64,000 nucleotides of DNA from a bacterium (GTDB lineage: Bacteria > Desulfobacterota > Binatia > DP-6), in NCBI GenBank assembly GCA_026129405.1, contig JAHCID010000006.1, positions 124,001-188,000 on the forward strand, read 5' to 3'. Made by a program: the position numbers and the translations under genes. Numbering within the stretch: position 1 is the first letter of the stretch; each line of letters begins with the position of its first letter. Below are positions 4,014 through 57,427 of the stretch, in pieces. The notes beneath the pieces were generated by a model that was not told where the DNA came from, made no database searches, and saw only the letters and a list, made by a program, of their open reading frames with translations.

Positions 4014-6491
4014 ATGGCCGCCATGCCCGACTCGCGCGCCCGGAGCGGGCCCCCACCGCGTACGCCCCCGAAGAATCCGCTCGGGGAGAAGGCCGCGGAC
4101 GAGCTGCGTGCCATCGCCCGGGACGCGCACGCGCCCGAGGACGCGATCGAGCCGGCCCTGCGCATCCTGCTCGAAGCGGTCGGCGCCACCGCGGGCGCCA
4201 TCTGTCTCTTCGACCAGCGCCAGGAGCTGCTGCGGCTGGCGGCCGAGGTGGGCCTGTCCGACGAGGGCTGCCGGCAGCTGCGCAGCGTGCGGCGCGGCGG
4301 CGTCGGCACCTGGGACATGCCGCTCCACAGCCTGCTCAACCGGCGCGCGTACCTGATCGAGAGCGCGGCGCGGAACCGCTACGTGCCGCCCCTCGTCGAG
4401 CCCGCGTCTTCGGTGCGGACGCTCGCGTGCATCCCGCTCTACACCGGCTCCACCGCGCTCGCGAGCCTCGTCCTGGTGGCGATGACGCCGCAGTCGTTCG
4501 GCGAACGCGAGATCCGGGTCCTCGACCCCGCGCTGCGCGAGCTGATCACGATCATCGAGTCGGTCCGCAAGCGCGTCCCCGGCGGCGCCGGCGCCGAGCG
4601 GAGCGAACCGGCCCCGGCATCCGCTCCCGCCCCGCCGCCGCTGCCCCCAGGTGCCCGCCGTCCGCAGCGCGCCACCCTGTCGCCCGAGCTGAGCCGCGAC
4701 ACGCGGCGCGCCGCGGCGCCACGCGCCCTGCCCGGCGCCGCCACCGCGCTCGAAGGCGGAGGCCGAGCGCGGCGGCGAGCCGGCCGCGCTCGCCGCGCGG
4801 CTCGAGGAGGCCGAGCACGCGACCGCGTCCGGCTCGCCGCCGCGCTCGAGAAGGCCGCCGCCGAGCGGGCCGCCGACGTGACCCGGCTCATGACGCGGCT
4901 GCTCGACGCCGAGAGCGCCGGCGCCCGCCAGACCGGCACGTCGCCGCGCGAAGGGGCCGAGGATCTGCGGCGGGCTCTCGAGGCCGCCCAGCTCGCCGAG
5001 ACGGCGCGGGCGACCGCCGCGGTCGAAGCCGAGGCGGCGCGCGTCGAGGCCACGCGCGCCCGCTCCGAGATCCAGCGTCTCCAGACCTCCGAGCGCGAGG
5101 CCCGCGAGGAGCGCGGTCGCCTCGAGCGCACGATCACGGACCTCGAGGGCCGGCTCGATGCGGCGAGCGCCGCACGCGGGCCGCAGGACGAGGCCCTCGC
5201 TGCCGCCACCGCCCGCGCCGAAGCCGCTGCGTCGGAGACGGCCGCGCTGCAGCGCGAGCGCGACGCCCTCGTCGCCGAGCGCGACAGCCTGCGCCAGGCC
5301 GGAGGCCGCCGGCGACGCCGACACGGCGCGCGCCGACCTCGCCCAGGCCCGCGCGCAGCTCGCCACGCTGAGCGCCGAGGTCCGAGCGCCTGGGCGCGGG
5401 GCCGCGACCGGCGCGCGCTGGCCGCCGACGCGGCCCGCGCCGCGCAAGCCGAGCACGGGCCCAGGCGACGCGCGCGCTCGCCGAGGCCGGCACCGCCCGC
5501 ATGCGGGTCGATGATCTCGGCGCGGCTCACCGGCGCACCGCGCCGAGCGCGGTCAGGCCACTCGCCGACGCCGACGCGCTGCGCGCCGCCGCCGCGCGGC
5601 CGAGGAGCACAAGTGCTGCGCGCGGAGCTCGATGCCACCCGCGGCGCCGCCAGTCGCTCCAGGCCGACGCGCCGACCGCCTGCGCGCCGAGGCGGAGCGC
5701 GCGAGCGCCATTATTGCCGGCCACAGCGGGCGGCGGCAGCCGAAGCGCGGGCGGCGCTCGACGCCGCCCTGACGGCGCAGACCACCGCCGTCGAGTCGCT
5801 GCGCGGCGAGCACGAGCGCGCGCTCGCGGGTCTGCGCGGTGAGCACGAGGGCACGCTCGCGAGCCTGCGTCGGGACCACGACGCCGCCCTCGCAGGGCTC
5901 GAGAGCGAGCACGCCGTCGCGCTCGACGGGCTGCGCACGGAGCACGCGACCATGCTCGCGGAGCGCGACGCGGCAGCAGCCGCCGCCGCGGAGCAGCTCG
6001 GCACGCTCGCCGCCGAGCGCGACGCCCTCGTAGCGCGCACCGAAGAGCTGACCGCGGCGCAGGCCCGCGCGGCCGAGGAAGCGGACGCCGCGCTGCGGGC
6101 CGCGGTCGAGGCCGCCCAGGCGGCCGCACGCAGCGAGCTCGATGCCGCCCACGCAGAGCTCGCGCCGCTGCGCAGCGAGCGCGACGCCCTGAAGGCCGCG
6201 CACGACGATCTCCTCGCTCGTGTCGACGCGCTGGCCGGCGAGCGCGACGAGCTGCGCGCCGCCACGGCCACGCTCACCGCGGAGCGCGACGTCCACGCCA
6301 CCGCGCGTGCCGAGCTCGAGGCGACGCTGCGTGCCACGCGTGACGAGGCCGCCGCGACGCTGCACGCCGAGCGCGCCCGCCTGGCGGCGGAGCTGACGGC
6401 GGCGCGCACCGGCACCCTGCCCACGGGCGATGCGGGTCGCGGCGCCGCTCGGCGCATCGTCGCGCCGCCGACGGACGAGCCACTTGGGTGA
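4014..6491 (+). CDS. GAF-domain plus long coiled-coil protein, frame-disrupted
   Basis: Residues 1-30 are a basic Pro-rich tail. About 30-170 form a GAF-like sensory domain (AGAICLFDQRQELLRLAAEVGLS, then the lipid-like pocket region ending in ITIIESV). A Pro/Ala linker and a very long Ala/Glu/Arg coiled coil follow. The frame is open throughout, but coding character moves between frames. KAEAERGGEPAALAARLEEAE is read one frame over at 4753-4830, then the original frame returns. From about 5300 to 5710 there are several further jumps before the heptads resume. This points to multiple indels, from sequencing error or decay. The start may be 4014 or 4023. The gene ends in a GTGA overlap with the receiver-like gene, which may be part of the same protein. 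The role is probably signalling or scaffolding. Confidence 0.6.
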   Translation: MAAMPDSRARSGPPPRTPPKNPLGEKAADELRAIARDAHAPEDAIEPALRILLEAVGATAGAICLFDQRQELLRLAAEVGLSDEGCRQLRSVRRGGVGTWDMPLHSLLNRRAYLIESAARNRYVPPLVEPASSVRTLACIPLYTGSTALASLVLVAMTPQSFGEREIRVLDPALRELITIIESVRKRVPGGAGAERSEPAPASAPAPPPLPPGARRPQRATLSPELSRDTRRAAAPRALPGAATALEGGGRARRRAGRARRAARGGRARDRVRLAAALEKAAAERAADVTRLMTRLLDAESAGARQTGTSPREGAEDLRRALEAAQLAETARATAAVEAEAARVEATRARSEIQRLQTSEREAREERGRLERTITDLEGRLDAASAARGPQDEALAAATARAEAAASETAALQRERDALVAERDSLRQAGGRRRRRHGARRPRPGPRAARHAERRGPSAWARGRDRRALAADAARAAQAEHGPRRRARSPRPAPPACGSMISARLTGAPRRARSGHSPTPTRCAPPPRGRGAQVLRAELDATRGAASRSRPTRRPPARRGGARERHYCRPQRAAAAEARAALDAALTAQTTAVESLRGEHERALAGLRGEHEGTLASLRRDHDAALAGLESEHAVALDGLRTEHATMLAERDAAAAAAAEQLGTLAAERDALVARTEELTAAQARAAEEADAALRAAVEAAQAAARSELDAAHAELAPLRSERDALKAAHDDLLARVDALAGERDELRAATATLTAERDVHATARAELEATLRATRDEAAATLHAERARLAAELTAARTGTLPTGDAGRGAARRIVAPPTDEPLG
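5799..5963 (+). repeat. Five tandem 33-bp (11-residue) coiled-coil repeats
   Basis: Within the coiled-coil gene the pattern L-R-x-E-H-x-x-x-L-A-x is repeated five times: LRGEHERALAG, LRGEHEGTLAS, LRRDHDAALAG, LESEHAVALDG, LRTEHATMLAE. Each unit is exactly 33 bases. Hendecad spacing implies a slightly right-handed coiled coil, and the DNA similarity suggests duplication within the gene. Confidence 0.8.
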
Positions 6492-7444
6492 TCTGGCGGG
6501 AGACGCCCGCCGACGCCGTTCCCCCGCCGCCCGAGACTCCCGTCGCCGCGGCCGGCTCGGACGAGCCCGACGCGCTCGTCGTCGACCCGCTCGCCGCCGG
6601 CGAGATGGCTCCGGCTCCCGCCCTCCAGGACGAGGCACCGCCGGCGGCCGGCGCGGACGCTCCCGTCGAAGCGCCGGCCGGCGCAGGCGGCACCCTGCCG
6701 CCGCCCGGCCCCGAGGTCGCCACCCGCACCGTCGTCCTCGACGACGATCTCGCCGCCTGGGACGGGATCGCGCCGGGCGAGGATCGTGAGCTGTGCCTGC
6801 GCTGTCCTGCGCCCGACACGGTCGCCGAGACGCTCGTCCTCTCGCCCGCGCGCGTGATCGCCAACCTCGCACGCCCCGGCGTCGTCGATCAGCTGCTGCG
6901 GCTGCGTGCCGCCGGCTACCCCGGCCGACTCCACGGCTATCTCGCGGCGCCGGCGGCGCGCGCCGTCCTGCCGCTCGCCGCGATCGAGCTGGGCAGCCGC
7001 CCGCTCGACCCCGACGCGGTCATCGCCTCGCTCGGCAACCACGGCGGTCAGGGCACGCGCGTCGTCATGGTCGGCGCCGACGTCGATGCCCTGATCAGCG
7101 CCCGCCAGGCCCTCGCCCGGCAGGGCATGTCCGTCTCCATGGCCTGGAACGCGAAGCAGGCCGACGATCTCCTCGGCATGGTGCGCCCGCAGGTCGTCGT
7201 CGTCGATCTCGACCTGCCCGGCCGCGACGGCTACGGCATCGTCGCGCGGCTCGCGGCGATGGCGACGGTCCCCGCGACGCTGCTCGTCGTCGGGGCCGAC
7301 GACCCCGCTCCGCGCCTCGCCGCCCTGGTCGGCGATCCGGCGCTCGCCGAGCGCCAGCAGCCCCGGGACCGTTACCTCCAGGCCGTGCTCAGCGCGAAGA
7401 GCACCGCGCCCGAGAAGAAGCGCACCGTCCGCGCCCTGCGCTAG
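6488..7444 (+). CDS. Pro-rich linker plus atypical response-regulator receiver domain
   Basis: A 318-residue product starting at GTG 6488, whose last bases overlap the TGA of the coiled-coil gene (GTGA). Residues 1-85 are Pro/Ala/Glu-rich and look disordered. Residues 90-190 form an alpha/beta region resembling a degenerate receiver or PATAN-like module. About 195-295 match a receiver domain with VVVVDLDLPGRDGYG holding the usual phospho-acceptor Asp. The switch Thr and conserved Lys positions look replaced (LLVVGAD), so phosphorylation may be absent or unconventional. No output domain is seen. The stop TAG at 7442-7444 is the left end of a CTAG-ended palindromic element. It may be the C-terminal part of the preceding GAF/coiled-coil protein. 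Confidence 0.65.
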   Translation: MIWRETPADAVPPPPETPVAAAGSDEPDALVVDPLAAGEMAPAPALQDEAPPAAGADAPVEAPAGAGGTLPPPGPEVATRTVVLDDDLAAWDGIAPGEDRELCLRCPAPDTVAETLVLSPARVIANLARPGVVDQLLRLRAAGYPGRLHGYLAAPAARAVLPLAAIELGSRPLDPDAVIASLGNHGGQGTRVVMVGADVDALISARQALARQGMSVSMAWNAKQADDLLGMVRPQVVVVDLDLPGRDGYGIVARLAAMATVPATLLVVGADDPAPRLAALVGDPALAERQQPRDRYLQAVLSAKSTAPEKKRTVRALR

Positions 7445-7529
7445 TCCCGAGTCCGAAGCTCGTTGCCGAAGATCGGGTGGGATCGCGCCGCCCGAGATAT
7501 GGTGACGCGCTTCGCACGCGGGACACTCG
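7441..7529. repeat. CTAG-ended palindromic element, copy A (internally shortened)
   Basis: The left arm starts CTAGTCCCGAGTCCGAAG and continues through GCCGAAGATCGGGTGGGATC. The right arm ends GGTGACGCGCTTCGCACGCG then GGGACACT. Both arms match copies at 38537 and 57262, but the central region is missing. It lies between convergent genes: the receiver gene stop is inside its left end and the rhomboid stop is 2 bases past its right end. Confidence 0.8.
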
Positions 7530-35601: not shown

Positions 35602-36960
35602 TCAACCGTGCGTCGGGTCGAGACCGAGCCGGCGCATGAGGCGGTAGAGCGTCGTGCGATCGATCCCGAGGACCCGCGCCGCCTCCGCCCGGTTGCCGGC
35701 CGCCGCCTCGAGCGCGCCGCGCACGCGCGCCGCCGTCGCGCGCTCGACCGCCGCCTGGAGCGTCTCCTCGCCGCCCGTCGGCGCCGCCGCGGGCGTCTCG
35801 AGCAGGAGGTCCTCGGGCTCGATGGCGCCGCCGCGCGCGAGGACCACGGCGCGCTCCACGGCGTTCTCGAGCTCACGGACGTTGCCCGGCCACGCGTGGG
35901 ACTCGAGCGCCGCGAGCGCCGCCGGTGCGAACGCGAGCGCGCGCCCCGCCTCCGCCGCATGGCGCGCGAGGACGTGCCGCGCGAGCGGGAGCACGTCCTC
36001 CCGGCGCTCGCGCAGCGGCGCGAGCTGGATCGGGATGACGTGCAGACGGAAGTAGAGATCCTCACGGAAGCGGCCCGCCGCGATCTCCTCGCGCAGGACG
36101 CGATTGGTGGCGGCGACGACGCGCACGTCGATCGGCCGCGGCTCGTTGCCGCCGACGCGCAGCACCTCGCCCTCCTGGAGCACGCGCAGCAGCTTCGCCT
36201 GCAGGTCGGGTGCGATCTCGCCGATCTCGTCGAGGAACAGCGTCCCGCCCGAGGCGCGCTCGAAGCAGCCGGCGCGCGTCGCCTGCGCGCCGGTGAACGC
36301 GCCCTTCTCGTGCCCGAAGAGCTCGCTCTCGACCACCCCCTCGGCGAACGCCTTCAGGTTGACGGCCACGAACGGCCGTCCCACCCGCTCGCTCCAGTAG
36401 TGCAGCAGGCGCGCGACGAGCTCCTTGCCGGTGCCGCTCTCGCCCTGCACCAGGACCGTCGCGCGGCTCGGCGCCACGCGGCGGACGAGGTCGAGCACCG
36501 CCCGGCTCTTCTCGCTCTCCGCGACCACGGCCGCCGGCGCGTAGCGGCTCGCGACCTCCTGCCGCAGCCAGCGGTTCTCGCGCTCGAGCCGGCCCAGCTC
36601 GAGCGCGCGACCGACCACCGCGCGCAGCTCCTCGTTGTCGAAGGGCTTGGTCACGTAGTCGAACGCGCCCGCCCGCATCGCCGCCACCGCGGCGCGCACG
36701 TCGCCGTAGGCGGTGAGCAGGACCACGGGGCGGTTCGGCCGCTGCGCCTTCAGACGCGTCAGCAGCTCGAGGCCGTCCATCTCCGGCATCTTCCAGTCGG
36801 TGACGACGGCGTCCGCGTCGCGTGCCTCGAGCGCCGCCAGCGCGGCGGCGCCGCCGGAAGCGACCTCGCAGATCCACCCGGCGCGCCCGAGCGCACCCGC
36901 GACCACGCTCGCCATGCGCGGCTCGTCGTCGACCACGAGGATGCGGGGCGCGACGCTCAC
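35602..36960 (-). CDS. Sigma-54-dependent response regulator (NtrC family)
   Basis: A 452-residue regulator. The receiver domain (1-120) has ILVVDDEP and the phospho-acceptor Asp55 in VTDWKMPEMDG. The AAA+ domain has GESGTGKE (Walker A), ESELFGHEKGAFTGA with an intact GAFTGA loop for sigma-54 contact, GGTLFLDEIGE (Walker B) and the WPGNVRELEN sensor II region. A Fis-type helix-turn-helix ends the protein (NRAEAARVLGIDRTTLYRL). The GTG start at 36960 overlaps the kinase stop (GTGA). Confidence 0.95.
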   Translation of the reverse strand: MSVAPRILVVDDEPRMASVVAGALGRAGWICEVASGGAAALAALEARDADAVVTDWKMPEMDGLELLTRLKAQRPNRPVVLLTAYGDVRAAVAAMRAGAFDYVTKPFDNEELRAVVGRALELGRLERENRWLRQEVASRYAPAAVVAESEKSRAVLDLVRRVAPSRATVLVQGESGTGKELVARLLHYWSERVGRPFVAVNLKAFAEGVVESELFGHEKGAFTGAQATRAGCFERASGGTLFLDEIGEIAPDLQAKLLRVLQEGEVLRVGGNEPRPIDVRVVAATNRVLREEIAAGRFREDLYFRLHVIPIQLAPLRERREDVLPLARHVLARHAAEAGRALAFAPAALAALESHAWPGNVRELENAVERAVVLARGGAIEPEDLLLETPAAAPTGGEETLQAAVERATAARVRGALEAAAGNRAEAARVLGIDRTTLYRLMRRLGLDPTHG

Positions 36961-37940
36961 GCCGCCACCGCCGCGGCCGTTGCCGGCAGCCGCACGACGA
37001 AGCGGGCGCCGCCGCCGGCGCGCTCGCCGACGTGGATCGCGCCGCCGTGCGCCTCCGCGATCTGCCTTGCGACGGCCAACCCGAGTCCCGTGCCGCGTTG
37101 GCGCGTCGTGAAGAACGGCTCGAAGACCCGCTCGCGCAGCTCCGCGGGCACGCCGGGCCCACTGTCCGCGACCTCGAGCTCGACGGCGTCGCCGGCCGAG
37201 CGTGCGTCGATCGTCACCAGGCCGGCCCGTCCGGCCGCTTCCCCCGCGTTCGACAGGAGGCCGAGCAGCAGCTGGCAGACGAGGTCGGGATCGACGCGCA
37301 GCGCGGGCAGGCCGGGCGCCGCCGCACGCTCGACGCGCACGCCGCGGTCGCGCAGCTCCTCGTCGGCCAGCGCCAGCGCCCGCGCGACGACGTCGCCGAC
37401 GGCCACCGGGCGCAGCGCCGGCTGGAGCGGCCGCGCGAAGGCGAGCAGCGAGGTGACGACGCTCGAGAGCCGATCGATCTCCGTGATGACGAACCCGCAC
37501 GCCCGGCGCGTGTGGCCGTCGTCCGGCGCCGCCTCCTCCTGGAGCCCCTGCGCGGCGGAGCGGATCACGGCGAGCGGGTTGCGCACCTCGTGCGCGATCG
37601 AGCTCGCGAGCTGGCCGAGCGCCGCCAGCTTCTCCTGCTGTGCCAGCCGCCCGCGCGTCGCCGCGAGCACGTCCTGCTGGGCCTGGATCGTGGCGCTCGC
37701 CGCCCGGTCGCGCCGCCGCGCCTCCACCGCGTACCCGACGGCGAAGCCGAGGGCCGCGAACGAGACGCCGAACCACAGCGCGACGAGGGCCGTCGCGTCC
37801 CGCCCGCCGATCTCGAAGCGGAAGCCGAGGGCGCTCGCGAGCAACGTGTCGACGCCCGCCCACACGATGCCGACGACGAGGCCGGTCCAGCGGTCGAGAC
37901 CCGCGGCGAGCGGGGCCAGCGCGGTGAGGGGTCGGGTCAT
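36957..37940 (-). CDS. Membrane sensor histidine kinase, partner of the NtrC-type regulator
   Basis: A 327-residue kinase with two N-terminal membrane helices (TGLVVGIVWAGVDTLLASALGF; ATALVALWFGVSFAALGFAVG) and almost no periplasmic loop. A coiled-coil linker follows, then HisKA with LASSIAHEVRNPLAVIRSA. The HATPase has LLSNAGEAAGRAG, VADSGPGVP and RGTGLGLAVARQIAEAHGG. The missing external domain suggests it senses the membrane or a cytosolic cue. Start ATG 37940. It is divergent from mscL. Confidence 0.92.
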   Translation of the reverse strand: MTRPLTALAPLAAGLDRWTGLVVGIVWAGVDTLLASALGFRFEIGGRDATALVALWFGVSFAALGFAVGYAVEARRRDRAASATIQAQQDVLAATRGRLAQQEKLAALGQLASSIAHEVRNPLAVIRSAAQGLQEEAAPDDGHTRRACGFVITEIDRLSSVVTSLLAFARPLQPALRPVAVGDVVARALALADEELRDRGVRVERAAAPGLPALRVDPDLVCQLLLGLLSNAGEAAGRAGLVTIDARSAGDAVELEVADSGPGVPAELRERVFEPFFTTRQRGTGLGLAVARQIAEAHGGAIHVGERAGGGARFVVRLPATAAAVAA

Positions 37941-37996
37941 GCAAGCGCTCCGCCGGCTCGGATCATCGTCCCCGCGGGCACGCGGGCGCAACCCGG

Positions 37997-38033
37997 CGTG
38001 GCGCCGCCACCACGCCGTGGCGGCGGCGCCACG
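37997..38033. promoter_or_regulatory. 17-bp inverted repeat with 3-nt loop in the kinase/mscL intergenic region
   Basis: The arm CGTGGCGCCGCCACCAC at 37997-38013 and its partner GTGGCGGCGGCGCCACG at 38017-38033 pair with one mismatch around the loop GCC. It lies between the divergent kinase and mscL genes. It may act as an operator or an RNA hairpin in a leader; there is no T-tract. Confidence 0.5.
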
Positions 38034-38117
38034 GCGCGCCCCTCGGCCTCGGGATTGACACCCCGCACCAGCGCGCTATCCGCATCGCCAGCAATCTCGC
38101 TGCGAGGAGGCGTCGCC

Positions 38118-38540
38118 ATGCTGAAGGAGTTCAAGGAGTTCGCGCTGCGCGGAAACGTCGTCGACATGGCCGTCGGCATCGTCATCGGCGCGGCCTTCGG
38201 CACCATCGTCACGTCCTTCGTGACCGACCTCATCACGCCCCTGCTCGGCCTCGTCACCGGCGGCACCGATTTCTCGAACCTTTTCTTCGTCCTGCGCGAC
38301 GGCTCGCCGGCGGGTCCCTACCCGTCCCTGCCGCGGGCCGCCGAGGCCGGCGCGGTCACCCTGAACCTGGGGGTGTTCCTGAACGCGGTCCTGAGCTTCC
38401 TCATCGTCGCGGTCGCGCTCTTCGCGGTGGTGAAGGCGATGAACGCGCTCCGCCGCGAGGCGCCCGCCGCCGAGCCGCCGCCGCCCCCGGCCGAGGAGAT
38501 CCTGCTGCGCGAGATCCGCGACCTCCTGAAGAGCCGCTAG
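38118..38540 (+). CDS. mscL: Large-conductance mechanosensitive channel
   Basis: A 140-residue channel that opens under high membrane tension to release solutes on osmotic downshock. MLKEFKEFALRGNVVDMAVGIVIGAAFG is the typical N-terminal helix and TM1. A periplasmic loop (DFSNLFFVLRDGS) follows, then TM2 (AVLSFLIVAVALFAVVKAMNAL), and the C-terminal bundle helix EEILLREIRDLLKSR sits after a Pro-rich linker. GAGGAGG lies seven bases before the ATG at 38118. Its TAG stop is the left end of palindromic element copy B. Confidence 0.96.
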   Translation: MLKEFKEFALRGNVVDMAVGIVIGAAFGTIVTSFVTDLITPLLGLVTGGTDFSNLFFVLRDGSPAGPYPSLPRAAEAGAVTLNLGVFLNAVLSFLIVAVALFAVVKAMNALRREAPAAEPPPPPAEEILLREIRDLLKSR

Positions 38541-38684
38541 TCCCGAGCCCGAAGCTGGTTGCCGAAGATCGGGTGGGATCGCGCCGCCCGGCGCGGCGCG
38601 ACGACGAGGCATGGCCGTCACCACGGTGAGGGGGAGCAACGCAGCCGGGCGGCGTGGGGTGACGAGCTTCGCACCCGGGACTAG
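38537..38684. repeat. CTAG-ended palindromic element, copy B
   Basis: The left arm starts CTAGTCCCGAGCCCGAAG with GCCGAAGATCGGGTGGGATC inside. The right arm ends GACGAGCTTCGCACCCGGGA then CTAG. The centre (GCGACGACGAGGCATGGCCG and onward) is the reverse complement of the centre of copy C at 57262, so the copies lie in opposite orientation. It fills the whole gap between convergent mscL and the DUF748 gene, and both genes use TAG codons inside its two CTAG ends. It has no coding capacity. Confidence 0.88.
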
Positions 38685-41623
38685 CTCGACACCTCCATCG
38701 CGACCGACGGCGTCCCGTCCGCGCGCTCGACCTGCACCGCCCCCATCGTGATGCGGTCGGCGGCGACGCCGTGCTGCTCGGCGAGCAGCCGGCGCAGCGC
38801 CTCGGCCCGCTGCTGCGCCAGCTCCGTGAGGGCGCCGTCGCTCACCTCCTGCTCCTGCGCCCACTCGTCGAGCCGGGCCTGGGCGCCCGGCTCGAGCGCC
38901 GGCGTCCCGCCGCGCGCCTTCTCCTCGAGCGCCTGGCGGATGGCCTTGCGGTCGCCCAGCGTGGCGAGGTTGCGGAACGTGCCCATGACGCCGCCCTCGT
39001 TGCGCAGGCTCGCGAGCAGCGCCGCCTCCTGGAGCGCGCGCACGTCGTCGGCGCCGCCGGCGCGGCCGTGCAGCGTCAGCGTGACGCCCGGCGCGCTGCC
39101 GACGAGCCCGGCCAGCTGCTCCACCTTCTCGGTCGCCTCGGGCGCGGGCGTCGCGCGCCCGGGCGGGAACGCCACCGGCTCGGGCTGGAACGAGGCGATC
39201 CGGTCGCCCTGCATGGTGACCGCGCCGAGCAGCTTCAGCGGCGAGGCCAGCGCGTTGACGATGGCGCGCGCGAGCGCCTGGCCGACGACGACTCCCAGGT
39301 CGACGCGCGTCCCCCGCTGGTCGCCGGCGACCGGGACGCCGAGGGCGATACGCCCGTTGACGTCGCGCATGAGCGCCAGCGCCAGCGTGAGCGGCACGCC
39401 GAACTGCTGGAGGAAGAGGCTGTCGCCCTGCGCGCCTTTCAGGTCGAACTGGTCGAGCGTCAGCTGGTTCGTGCTCTCGAACGCGTCGGCTCCCCACGTC
39501 ACCCTGCTGTCGAACGTGAACGTGCCGCGCGGCGCGATGCTGTAGCCGGCGCGCGGGATCACGTAGGGGTTGAACTGCGCGAGGCCGAGCTTCTGCGTGC
39601 TCACCTGGTACGCGACGCGGCTGCCCTGGCGCTTGCCCGTCACCTGGATGGGCGCGCCGCCGGGCGCCTTCGCCCGCACCTCGAACTCGGCGAACGTGCC
39701 CGCGGGCAGCGCGACGTCGCGCGCCTGCACGCCGAGGTCGGTGATCGCGCCGCGGTAGAACGGCCTGGTCGTGCGATCCGTGACCGACACCTCGCCCTTC
39801 GTGAGGCTCAGGCCCGCGATCTTCACCTGCGGCGCCGGGGCCGCAGCGGCGGCCGGCGATGCCGCCTCGGCGGCGGGCGCCGGCGTGGGCGCTGCGGCCG
39901 GGGCGCCCTCCTCGCCCGCCGGCGCGGGCGTCGCCCCGGCGGCCGGCAGGACGATGCCCGTCTCGGTGCGCGTCAGCACCACCTTCGGCGCCACCAGCTC
40001 CACGCTGGCGAGGTCGACGGTGATCGGCTCCGTCGCCGGGCTCGGGCCGCCGAGCGCTCCGGGCACCCGCAGCCCGTCGATCGCGACCGCGAGCCGCTCC
40101 CACGCCGCGCGGAACTCGTCGCCGCCCTGGAGCGGCAGCACCGTGACGTCGCCCAGCGTGACGGTGCCCTTCACCGTGGCCGCCGTCTCGGCCGTGGCGA
40201 CGTGGAGGTCGGCGTCGAGCCGACTCGTCGGTAGCTGCACCGGCGCGCCGCCCACCGCCGCGAGGAGATGGCCGAGCTCGACGCCGGCCAGGGTCACCTG
40301 GACGTCCGGCGCCGGCGGATCGAGCCGCACGGAGCCGACCACGCCGAGGGCGGCATTCGACTCCGTCACCCGGAGATCGACCTTCACGACGCTGCCCGGC
40401 TCGCTCGAGAGCCCGGTGACGGTGGCGTGCGGGATGACGATCGCCAGCGGCGGCGGATCGAGCACGAGCCGCACGCCGGAGTCCGTGACCTCGACCGTGT
40501 GCACCTGCCAGGCCCAGGGCTTCGCCTCGGGGGCCGGCGCCGTCGTCGTGCCGGGCTCCGGCGCAGGCTTCACCGCCGGCGAGCCGAGGAGCCCGCGCAG
40601 GAGCGGCAGCGCGACCGGATCGCGCGGGCGAGCCAGCACCCCCGCCCCGTCGAGCGCGACCCGCGACACCACCGCGCGGCGCGCGTTCGGGTCGACGCTC
40701 TCCAGCTCGATGCGCAACGAGCGCCACGCCAGCACCGGGTCGGGCTCGTCCTGTACCGAGACCACGAGGTCGCGCAGGGTGGTCGCGCCGCGCACCACGG
40801 GCAGCTCGCCGGCGCCGAGGCGCATCGCGAGCTGGAGGTCGAGGCGTCCCTGGAAGCTGCTCCAGCCGAGCTGCGGGACGTGTGTCTGGGTGCGGTCGAG
40901 CGGCAGGTTGCGGGCGTCGATCCAGGCGGTGGTGGTGAAGCCCTTCGGACGGCGCTGGACGCTCGCCTTGATGCGCAGCGAGCCGTCGCCGAAGGTCGCG
41001 AGGATCTCGCCGCTGCCCGGCTTGCCGTCGGGCCCGGCCTGGAGCGCGAAGTTGCGTAGCACGAAGGTGCCGAGGTCGAGCTCGGCGTCCTGGGGCGGCT
41101 CCGCCACGCGGTCGCGCAGGCGCACGCGTCCCTGGCGCAGGGTCGCGAGGTCGATGACGACGCTCCACGGCGTGCCCGTCTCGGCCGGCGCCGCTTCCGC
41201 GGCCGGCGCCGCACCCGCCGCCGGCGCGGCTTCCCCGGCCGCCGGGGCCTCGCGCAGCCCGGGGAGCGGCACCGAGCCGTCGCGCTCGCGCACGGGGTAG
41301 AGCGCGGGGCCGTCGATGTCCAGCTCCTCGACCTGCACGATGCGCGAGAGCAGCGGCCGCCAGGCGAGGTTCACGTAGAGGCGATGCAGCTTGGCGACGG
41401 GCGGCCCGATCTCGCCGCGGACGGCGACGCGCTCGAGCGCGATCGCGCCGCGCAGCAGCCACAGATCGACGTCGCCGATGTCGAGGCGGCCCGCGATCGC
41501 CTGATTCGCCTGCGCCACGGCGACCCGACGCACGATCTCCGGCAGCGCGATGCGCAACGCGACCAGAAGGACCACCACGCCGATCGCGAGCCAACGTACC
41601 CAGCGACGACGCCACAATCCCAT
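38681..41623 (-). CDS. DUF748/AsmA-like large envelope protein
   Basis: A 980-residue protein anchored by one N-terminal helix (WLAIGVVVLLVALRIALPEIV), the rest predicted periplasmic. It has the long beta-rich AsmA-like groove pattern typical of DUF748. LDIGDVDLWLLRGAIALERVAV opens it, and repeated segments such as LRVTESNAALGVVGSVRL and FTFDSRVTWGADAFESTNQL follow. Two Ala/Pro linkers interrupt it (near 128-150 and 590-640). The C-terminal 150 residues resemble an OmpA-type region (ALTELAQQRAEALRRLLAEQ). By analogy with the AsmA clan it may help move lipids between membranes. Its TAG stop lies in palindromic element copy B. Confidence 0.8.
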   Translation of the reverse strand: MGLWRRRWVRWLAIGVVVLLVALRIALPEIVRRVAVAQANQAIAGRLDIGDVDLWLLRGAIALERVAVRGEIGPPVAKLHRLYVNLAWRPLLSRIVQVEELDIDGPALYPVRERDGSVPLPGLREAPAAGEAAPAAGAAPAAEAAPAETGTPWSVVIDLATLRQGRVRLRDRVAEPPQDAELDLGTFVLRNFALQAGPDGKPGSGEILATFGDGSLRIKASVQRRPKGFTTTAWIDARNLPLDRTQTHVPQLGWSSFQGRLDLQLAMRLGAGELPVVRGATTLRDLVVSVQDEPDPVLAWRSLRIELESVDPNARRAVVSRVALDGAGVLARPRDPVALPLLRGLLGSPAVKPAPEPGTTTAPAPEAKPWAWQVHTVEVTDSGVRLVLDPPPLAIVIPHATVTGLSSEPGSVVKVDLRVTESNAALGVVGSVRLDPPAPDVQVTLAGVELGHLLAAVGGAPVQLPTSRLDADLHVATAETAATVKGTVTLGDVTVLPLQGGDEFRAAWERLAVAIDGLRVPGALGGPSPATEPITVDLASVELVAPKVVLTRTETGIVLPAAGATPAPAGEEGAPAAAPTPAPAAEAASPAAAAAPAPQVKIAGLSLTKGEVSVTDRTTRPFYRGAITDLGVQARDVALPAGTFAEFEVRAKAPGGAPIQVTGKRQGSRVAYQVSTQKLGLAQFNPYVIPRAGYSIAPRGTFTFDSRVTWGADAFESTNQLTLDQFDLKGAQGDSLFLQQFGVPLTLALALMRDVNGRIALGVPVAGDQRGTRVDLGVVVGQALARAIVNALASPLKLLGAVTMQGDRIASFQPEPVAFPPGRATPAPEATEKVEQLAGLVGSAPGVTLTLHGRAGGADDVRALQEAALLASLRNEGGVMGTFRNLATLGDRKAIRQALEEKARGGTPALEPGAQARLDEWAQEQEVSDGALTELAQQRAEALRRLLAEQHGVAADRITMGAVQVERADGTPSVAMEVSS

Positions 41624-41717
41624 TCTGCTCGCACCATAGCAGAGTGAGCCCGGCTGCCCATCGGGGTCGTGCGTGCGTTTGCACCCCTCCCGGGCCGCCG
41701 CCATCCTCCTCCTCGGC

Positions 41718-42524
41718 ATGTCTCCCGCACGGCGTCTGCTGCCGATTCTCGTCGTCCTCCTCGGTGCCGGCTGCGCGCGCCTCCTGCCGTCGCCCGAGCC
41801 GCCCGCGCCGCCGCCGGGCATTCCCTGGACGAGTCGCATGGTCGAGCGCCAGGACGGCGTCTGCGGTCGGGACGGCGGCTGCGCGCGCGTGCAGATCGTG
41901 TGGCCCGTGGTCGCCGGTGGCGACGACACGCGGTCGGCGGCGATCGACGCCGAGGTCCTCGCCCTGCTGCTGAAGCCCTGGCCCGACGGACCGAGCGCCG
42001 CGTCGCCCGAGGCGCTGGCCGACGCCTCGATCGCCGAGTGGCGCCGCTTCCGCGAAGAGTATCCCGACGCCACCGGCGACTGGCAGGTACGCCGCTCGAT
42101 CCGCGTCCTCTTCGAAACCCCGACCGTCCTCACGCTGGGACTCGAGAACGTCGGCGAGACCGGGCCCGAGCACACCTTCGAGGCGCTGCGCTATCGGCTG
42201 CTACGGCCGGCGACCGGCGCGCGTCTCGCGATCGGCGACCTGTTGATCGACGGCGGGACCGGGCAGCTGGCGGCGCTCGCCGAGCAGGCCTTCCGCGCCA
42301 CGCGCGGCGTCGCGCCCGGCACGTCTCTCGCCGCCGCCGGCTTCACGTTCCCCGACGATCGCTTCGCGCTGCCCGACGACGTCGGCGTCCTGCGCGAGGG
42401 CGTCGCCGTGCACTGGGACGCGGCGGCGATCGCGCCGTATGCGAGCGGGGCGACCGACCTCCTGCTGTCGTGGTCCGCCGTGCAGCCGCTGCTGCGCGAG
42501 GACAGCGCCCTCCCGCCGCGCTGA
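41718..42524 (+). CDS. DUF3298-like lipoprotein
   Basis: A 268-residue lipoprotein. The signal peptide [15 protein letters not shown] ends at a lipobox cysteine near residue 19, followed by a Pro-rich tether. The C-terminal 100 residues match the DUF3298/RsiV-type fold: [14 protein letters not shown], then [20 protein letters not shown] and [22 protein letters not shown]. Related domains occur in lysozyme-sensing and peptidoglycan deacetylase proteins, but the ligand here is unknown. ATG 41718 is preferred over an upstream GTG at 41673. It is divergent from the DUF748 gene. Confidence 0.75.
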
Positions 42525-57261: not shown

Positions 57262-57427
57262 TAGTGTCTCGAGTCCGAAGTTCGTCGCCGAATCTCGGGC
57301 GGTCTCACGCCGCCCGCCTGCGTTGCTCCTCCTCACCATAGCGACGGCTATGCCTCGTCGTCGCGCCGCGCCGGACGGTGCGATCCCACCCGATCTTCGG
57401 CGACGAACTTCGGACTCGGGACACTAG
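57262..57427. repeat. CTAG-ended palindromic element, copy C (most complete)
   Basis: A 166-bp element running CTAG to CTAG. The left end is CTAGTGTCTCGAGTCCGAAG and the right end is GAACTTCGGACTCGGGACAC then TAG. The first 32 bases of both arms match as inverted repeats with one mismatch, and looser similarity continues to about 58 bases. The centre (TGCGTTGCTCCTCCTCACCA and onward) is shared, inverted, with copy B. It lies 32 bases past the 3' end of the M28 peptidase gene and just upstream of the small secreted protein gene. No coding capacity. Confidence 0.92.

Follow-up and report, generated by a model that had tools for sequence, protein, structure and literature searches.

What are the three CTAG-ended palindromic repeats that occur in a single 64,000-nucleotide stretch of a Binatia genome (hereafter the window), and do their ends alone account for their spread? 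A sequence-only reading had taken copies A (7441–7529), B (38537–38684) and C (57262–57427) for non-coding miniature inverted-repeat transposable elements (MITEs), mobilised by an IS630-type transposase elsewhere in the genome and diversified in length over time. All three copies were confirmed at these positions, and whole-genome searches located element DNA at ∼24 places in the window's genome. Five of the genomic copies, C included, are nearly full length, with 90–100% identity to C. The intact unit is 161 bp, GTGTCCCGAG...CTCGGGACAC, flanked on each side by the dinucleotide TA. Diversification describes the length differences only in part: the shorter copies are deletion derivatives, but intact copies measure 161 bp or nearly so. 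The copies are non-coding; 161 bp is too short for a transposase, and ORFs that overlap the elements run through from outside. RNA folding of copy C gave −109.4 kcal/mol (z = −10.8 versus shuffled sequences), and copy B gave z = −4.6. A central hairpin, detected by its match to a covariance model, is kept in 8 of the ∼24 genomic copies. Several elements start TA-GTCCC rather than TA-GTGTCCC and are 2 bp shorter there (38540, 7444, L008, L012 and L016), copy B at both ends.

IS630 transposase genes, full-length or relic, with matching CTAGTGTCC... ends were found in related genomes, among them relatives from the same class, several of which are titled Candidatus Binatia. One such gene (L187; 374 aa, NCBIfam IS630 249 bits) has ends, CTAGTGTCCCGTCCC / TAGTGTCCTGTCCC, that resemble the MITE of the same genome; it carries CTAGTGTCCCGTCCCAT and, inverted, TAGTGTCCTGTCCCAT, and the MITE has CTAGTGTCCTGTCCCGTA. 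The right end of an IS630 relic (L192), CTAGTGTCCTGAGTTAGAGGTTCG, is close to the window's CTAGTGTCCCGAGTCCGAAGTTCG, and a Longimicrobiales chromosome contains an IS630 (L412) with CTAGTGTAGTGTCCG alongside a MITE with CTAGTGTTGTGTCCC. Nearly all intact copies have TA on both sides. Empty sites with a single TA, a search for which had been suggested, were sought by joining the flanks of copies in the genome of a relative, G071, without the element and searching its congeners; the window's own copies were not used. Sites L244 and L250 of G071 are empty in congeners, with a single TA there. Site L240 carries the element in G071 and G137 but lacks it in six other genomes; its sequence in G059, ATTA-ACAC-TAG, resembles a footprint of excision (TA-A-CAC-TA). 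Given the matching IS630 ends, the empty sites and the footprint, the original interpretation stands: that the elements are non-autonomous IS630-type MITEs is supported, and there is good support for a DDE transposase as the agent of their movement. The family, its ends, insertion at TA and the empty sites are all direct observations.

Elements with matching ends exist in other genomes (L187, L192 and L412), but no cognate autonomous IS630 was found in the window's genome, where the reading had expected one or at least advised looking; the one IS630 there has only CTAGTG in common with the MITEs, and the window's exact ends are matched only by a relic with close ends outside its own genome. 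Nor was any IS630 detected in four copy-rich genomes (G155, G153, G163 and G089; 35–99 copies), most of which are draft MAGs, and these lose repeats. IS701, considered as a partner on account of CTAG duplication, was rejected, with DDE_5 present in 1/19 genomes and without these ends. Among the G071 copies (L237–L256), terminal repeats differ strongly and cores are almost identical; both ends of a copy change together.

While correct about IS630 MITEs, the sequence-only reading was incomplete in that it missed the centre, a conserved structured module common to MITEs of unrelated transposases. BLAST matches in other genomes were confined to the central 60 bp, the arms and ends of the matched elements being different. 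The core is ∼60 nt, GGCAAGGCGCGACGACGAG–apical stem–CGAGGAGGAGCAACGCAGCC, in the order 5′ stem–AAG–GCG–C GA C GA C GA G–apical stem–C GA G GA G GA G–CAA–CGC–N–stem 3′. Above a basal stem lies a GCG/CGC helix bearing a CAA bulge; then come three tandem GA/GA mismatches, with single Watson–Crick pairs between them, and finally a covarying apical stem. The three consecutive mismatches are conserved, being kept in most copies across phyla. Variants exist: in the genus of G071, U-A replaces C-G between two of the tandem GAs, and in a few copies (relaxed hits) the first GA/GA is GC/GC or CC/GG, i.e. Watson–Crick. In the basal and apical stems, 183 double-changed cells were counted versus 71 in shuffles (0/500 as high), and sliding the pairing partner abolishes the covariation. 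Two caveats apply to this observed conservation of structure. The invariant core columns were fixed by the search pattern, leaving only other columns, relaxed hits and the variant in the genus of G071 as independent evidence, and template switching that perfects palindromes can create covariation too.

Table. Positions of element features and of the stop codons they contribute to within the window (GA strand, the strand carrying the tandem GAs).
Feature	Position	Strand	Basis or remark
Copy C, intact 161-bp MITE	57264..57424	- (GA strand of hairpin = minus)	Genome family, RNA fold
Left TA target duplication, copy C	57262..57263	.	Single TA in relatives' empty sites
Right TA target duplication, copy C	57425..57426	.	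Single TA in relatives' empty sites
Core hairpin, copy C (minus strand: GGCGCGACGACGAG...GAGGAGGAGCAACGC)	57318..57369	-	Limits approximate
Copy B, MITE with core	38540..38681	+	Each end 2 bp shorter: TAGTCCC, not TAGTGTCCC
Copy B flanking TAs	38538-38539 and 38682-38683		
Copy A, core-less deletion derivative	7444..7526	+	Core lost between direct repeats CCGCCCG
TAG stop, MscL-domain ORF 36822-38540	38538..38540	+	Target TA + element's first G
TAG stop, DUF748/AsmA-like ORF 38681-42175 (-)	38681..38683	-	Element's last base + target TA
TAG stop, response regulator-like ORF 6488-7444	7442..7444	+	Target TA + element's first G

A scan of one genome per species for the exact two-half core pattern yielded 102 stretches. 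The names of the records include Nitrospirae, Gallionellales, Burkholderiales, Lysobacterales, Krumholzibacteriia, Binatia, Acidobacteria, Thermoanaerobaculia, Myxococcota, Omnitrophica, Gemmatimonadetes, Planctomycetota and Eisenbacteria, among others, giving a host range of about ten phyla. Most of these records are draft MAGs, and single ones may be misbinned; three of the records are whole assembled chromosomes (OY282432, OX639991 and OX638375). Copy number reaches 54–99 in some genomes, based on the covariance model, and in one class the core is present in 30/145 genomes. Three types of ends surround it. The first, TAGTG...CACTA with TA, is that of IS630. The second, C-TGA-GAGTTTGTGAATC..., is like that of an IS1182 element in genome G006 (L403; NCBIfam IS1182 373 bits), whose ends are TCAGAGGTTGTGAAGC / TGAGAGCGTGTGAATTT; the MITE there has TGAGAGTTTGTGAACG, similar but not identical. 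The third is found in Burkholderiales and Gallionellales, on 244-bp elements that end in (W)CCTTGAAACAGCAGTTGAAC and duplicate TNA; no transposase was identified for them. Because the same core is seen inside IS630, IS1182-like and TNA-type ends, it is a portable module rather than a by-product of one transposon.

The two strands of the elements are not equivalent. With RNA parameters, the more stable fold belongs to the GA strand, not its complement, in 64/67 non-redundant whole elements, and DNA parameters give 62/67. When the core was removed and the arms alone were folded, the GA strand was still the better one in 57/67 (mean −10 kcal/mol, P = 5e-11; RNA parameters). G-U pairs number 310 on the GA strand versus 150 on the complement and, in our own reading of the arms, those that are unrelated in sequence retain further tandem GAs. 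The tandem GAs, together with the G-U bias, argue that one strand has been selected to fold while single. The best reading of these data is that selection keeps the GA strand foldable, in arms and core alike, while the terminal repeats change.

We propose, with a probability of roughly 0.75, that these are IS630-mobilised MITEs carrying a selected hairpin module that acts single-stranded, as ssDNA or RNA, the function of the module being inferred. An IS630-family (Tc1/mariner-like) transposase would recognise the TAGTG...CACTA ends, cut and paste the MITE and duplicate TA; mobilisation in trans is an inference. The separate internal module would be a hairpin foldable on one strand only. Folding of that strand would most likely take place in single-stranded DNA at the replication fork, with RNA as the alternative; once folded, the strand might help the element itself to multiply or persist, a benefit likewise inferred. 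As the folding state, ssDNA is somewhat ahead of RNA, again by inference. The window's genome contains four half elements with a single end (L009, L010, L013 and L016), all of which break off where the core hairpin has its 5′ base, at points within 8 bp of one another, with unrelated sequence beyond, and two copies have in common a deletion across the core between direct repeats. Both features are hints of folding in DNA. One caveat here is that copies show no replication-strand bias along the G071 chromosome, for any origin tried, and hence there is no direct sign of fork-linked folding.

It remains possible, if doubtful, that the GA strand acts at the transcript level, forming a stable 3′ hairpin or an RNA bound by protein. 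The twofold excess of G-U pairs on this strand speaks for such an element, and 41/95 IS630-type copies coincide exactly with the stop codon of a gene. The latter figure loses much of its force when compared to the available targets, since 31% of non-coding CTAG sites are themselves stop codons (versus 43% of copies); stop-codon targeting was thus rejected as a special trait, and the placement is mostly explained by CTAG preference plus tolerance. Against a role in RNA, the GA strand has no preferred orientation to the adjoining gene end (86 cases sense, 74 antisense; P = 0.38), and convergent and divergent gene neighbours are equally common. An apparent mRNA orientation bias at 122 sites (P = 0.03) was gone at 189 sites. 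Rfam 15 gave no match at the gathering score and, at a relaxed threshold, only chance eukaryotic or viral families. Random orientation, combined with random strands along the chromosome, means that a cis effect on mRNA, in which the element acts as part of the neighbouring gene's transcript, is not favoured.

Copy B lies between convergent MscL-domain and DUF748/AsmA-like genes and provides the TAG stop of both. The MscL domain occupies the C-terminus of a 572-aa ORF, whose long N-terminal part is only putative coding sequence.

Less probable, and in our judgement unlikely, is that these are plain IS630 MITEs in which the ends alone matter, the centre being an old passenger spread by transfer and its covariation a product of arm correction. 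Correction of palindromes is established, and the lack of orientation bias relative to genes is in keeping with a plain element. However, correction would erase the GA/GA mismatches, which most copies across phyla retain. Passenger status also sits poorly with the IS1182 and TNA-type ends around the same core, and with arms that favour one strand in 57/67 elements. A precedent does exist in the RUP element of pneumococcus, an IS630-driven MITE for which no further parts are known (PMC2229807).

A REP-like element mobilised by a Y1 (RAYT) transposase through recognition of the mismatched hairpin is very improbable: the hairpin is imperfect, with CTAG at its base, intergenic and high in copy number, but a Y1_Tnp gene is absent from element carriers G002, G003, G037, G050, G080, G123 and G148, and two terminal repeats with TA duplication fit IS630 and not RAYT. 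Scarcely tenable is the conserved terminator or structural RNA at fixed loci that the sequence-only reading had named as one potential refutation, for although stable hairpins do occur at gene ends, the sites differ between species, orthologous sites are empty in congeners, and no T-run was seen in the copies read, without a terminator scan.

MITEs are usually thought to require their ends only. The most conserved part of the elements described here is the middle, which is the same across IS630, IS1182 and a third end type in about ten phyla and is maintained as a strand-specific fold whose core of non-Watson–Crick pairs is unusual. A broader form of our proposal, for and against which we could argue with equal conviction, is that the hairpin with three tandem G·A pairs serves bacterial MITEs in general as an accessory: a single-strand structure that is portable, is exchanged among mini-transposons of unrelated transposase families in about ten phyla, and works at the level of ssDNA or RNA through a host factor that is widely conserved. 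If true, the conservation of the middle points to a common way, open to testing, for non-autonomous elements to multiply or survive, as well as to an undescribed nucleic-acid motif recognised by a conserved host factor.

Beyond Rfam, no match to the core was found among plasmids, phages and viral contigs, and its sequence appears in no relevant open-access paper, the sole literature match being one 13-base string in a paper on human sperm; ISfinder and the subscription literature were outside the search. Open-access literature likewise gave no paper on tandem GA in mobile elements. Among Rfam, plasmid, phage, viral and open-access records, then, the hairpin core is undescribed.

Several known repeats share some of its features. 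REP/REPIN sequences with RAYT are also imperfect hairpins with many intergenic copies, whereas the present elements need no RAYT and have DDE-type ends with target duplication. Correia/NEMIS elements of Neisseria are MITE-like, fold in RNA and lie near genes, but they have other ends and sequence and are confined to one genus, and we know of no tandem G·A core in them. ERIC and CIR, like the present elements, are intergenic palindromic repeats with conserved folding; to our knowledge, they have no link to IS630 or IS1182 ends and no sequence in common with the core. The closest published MITE is RUP of Streptococcus pneumoniae, which is driven by IS630-Spn1 (PMC2229807). RUP differs in having no reported conserved strand-specific core and in not being common to MITEs of other transposases, but it resembles the elements of the window in being ∼0.1–0.16 kb and non-coding, with inverted ends that match an IS630 element and a TA target (PMC2229807).
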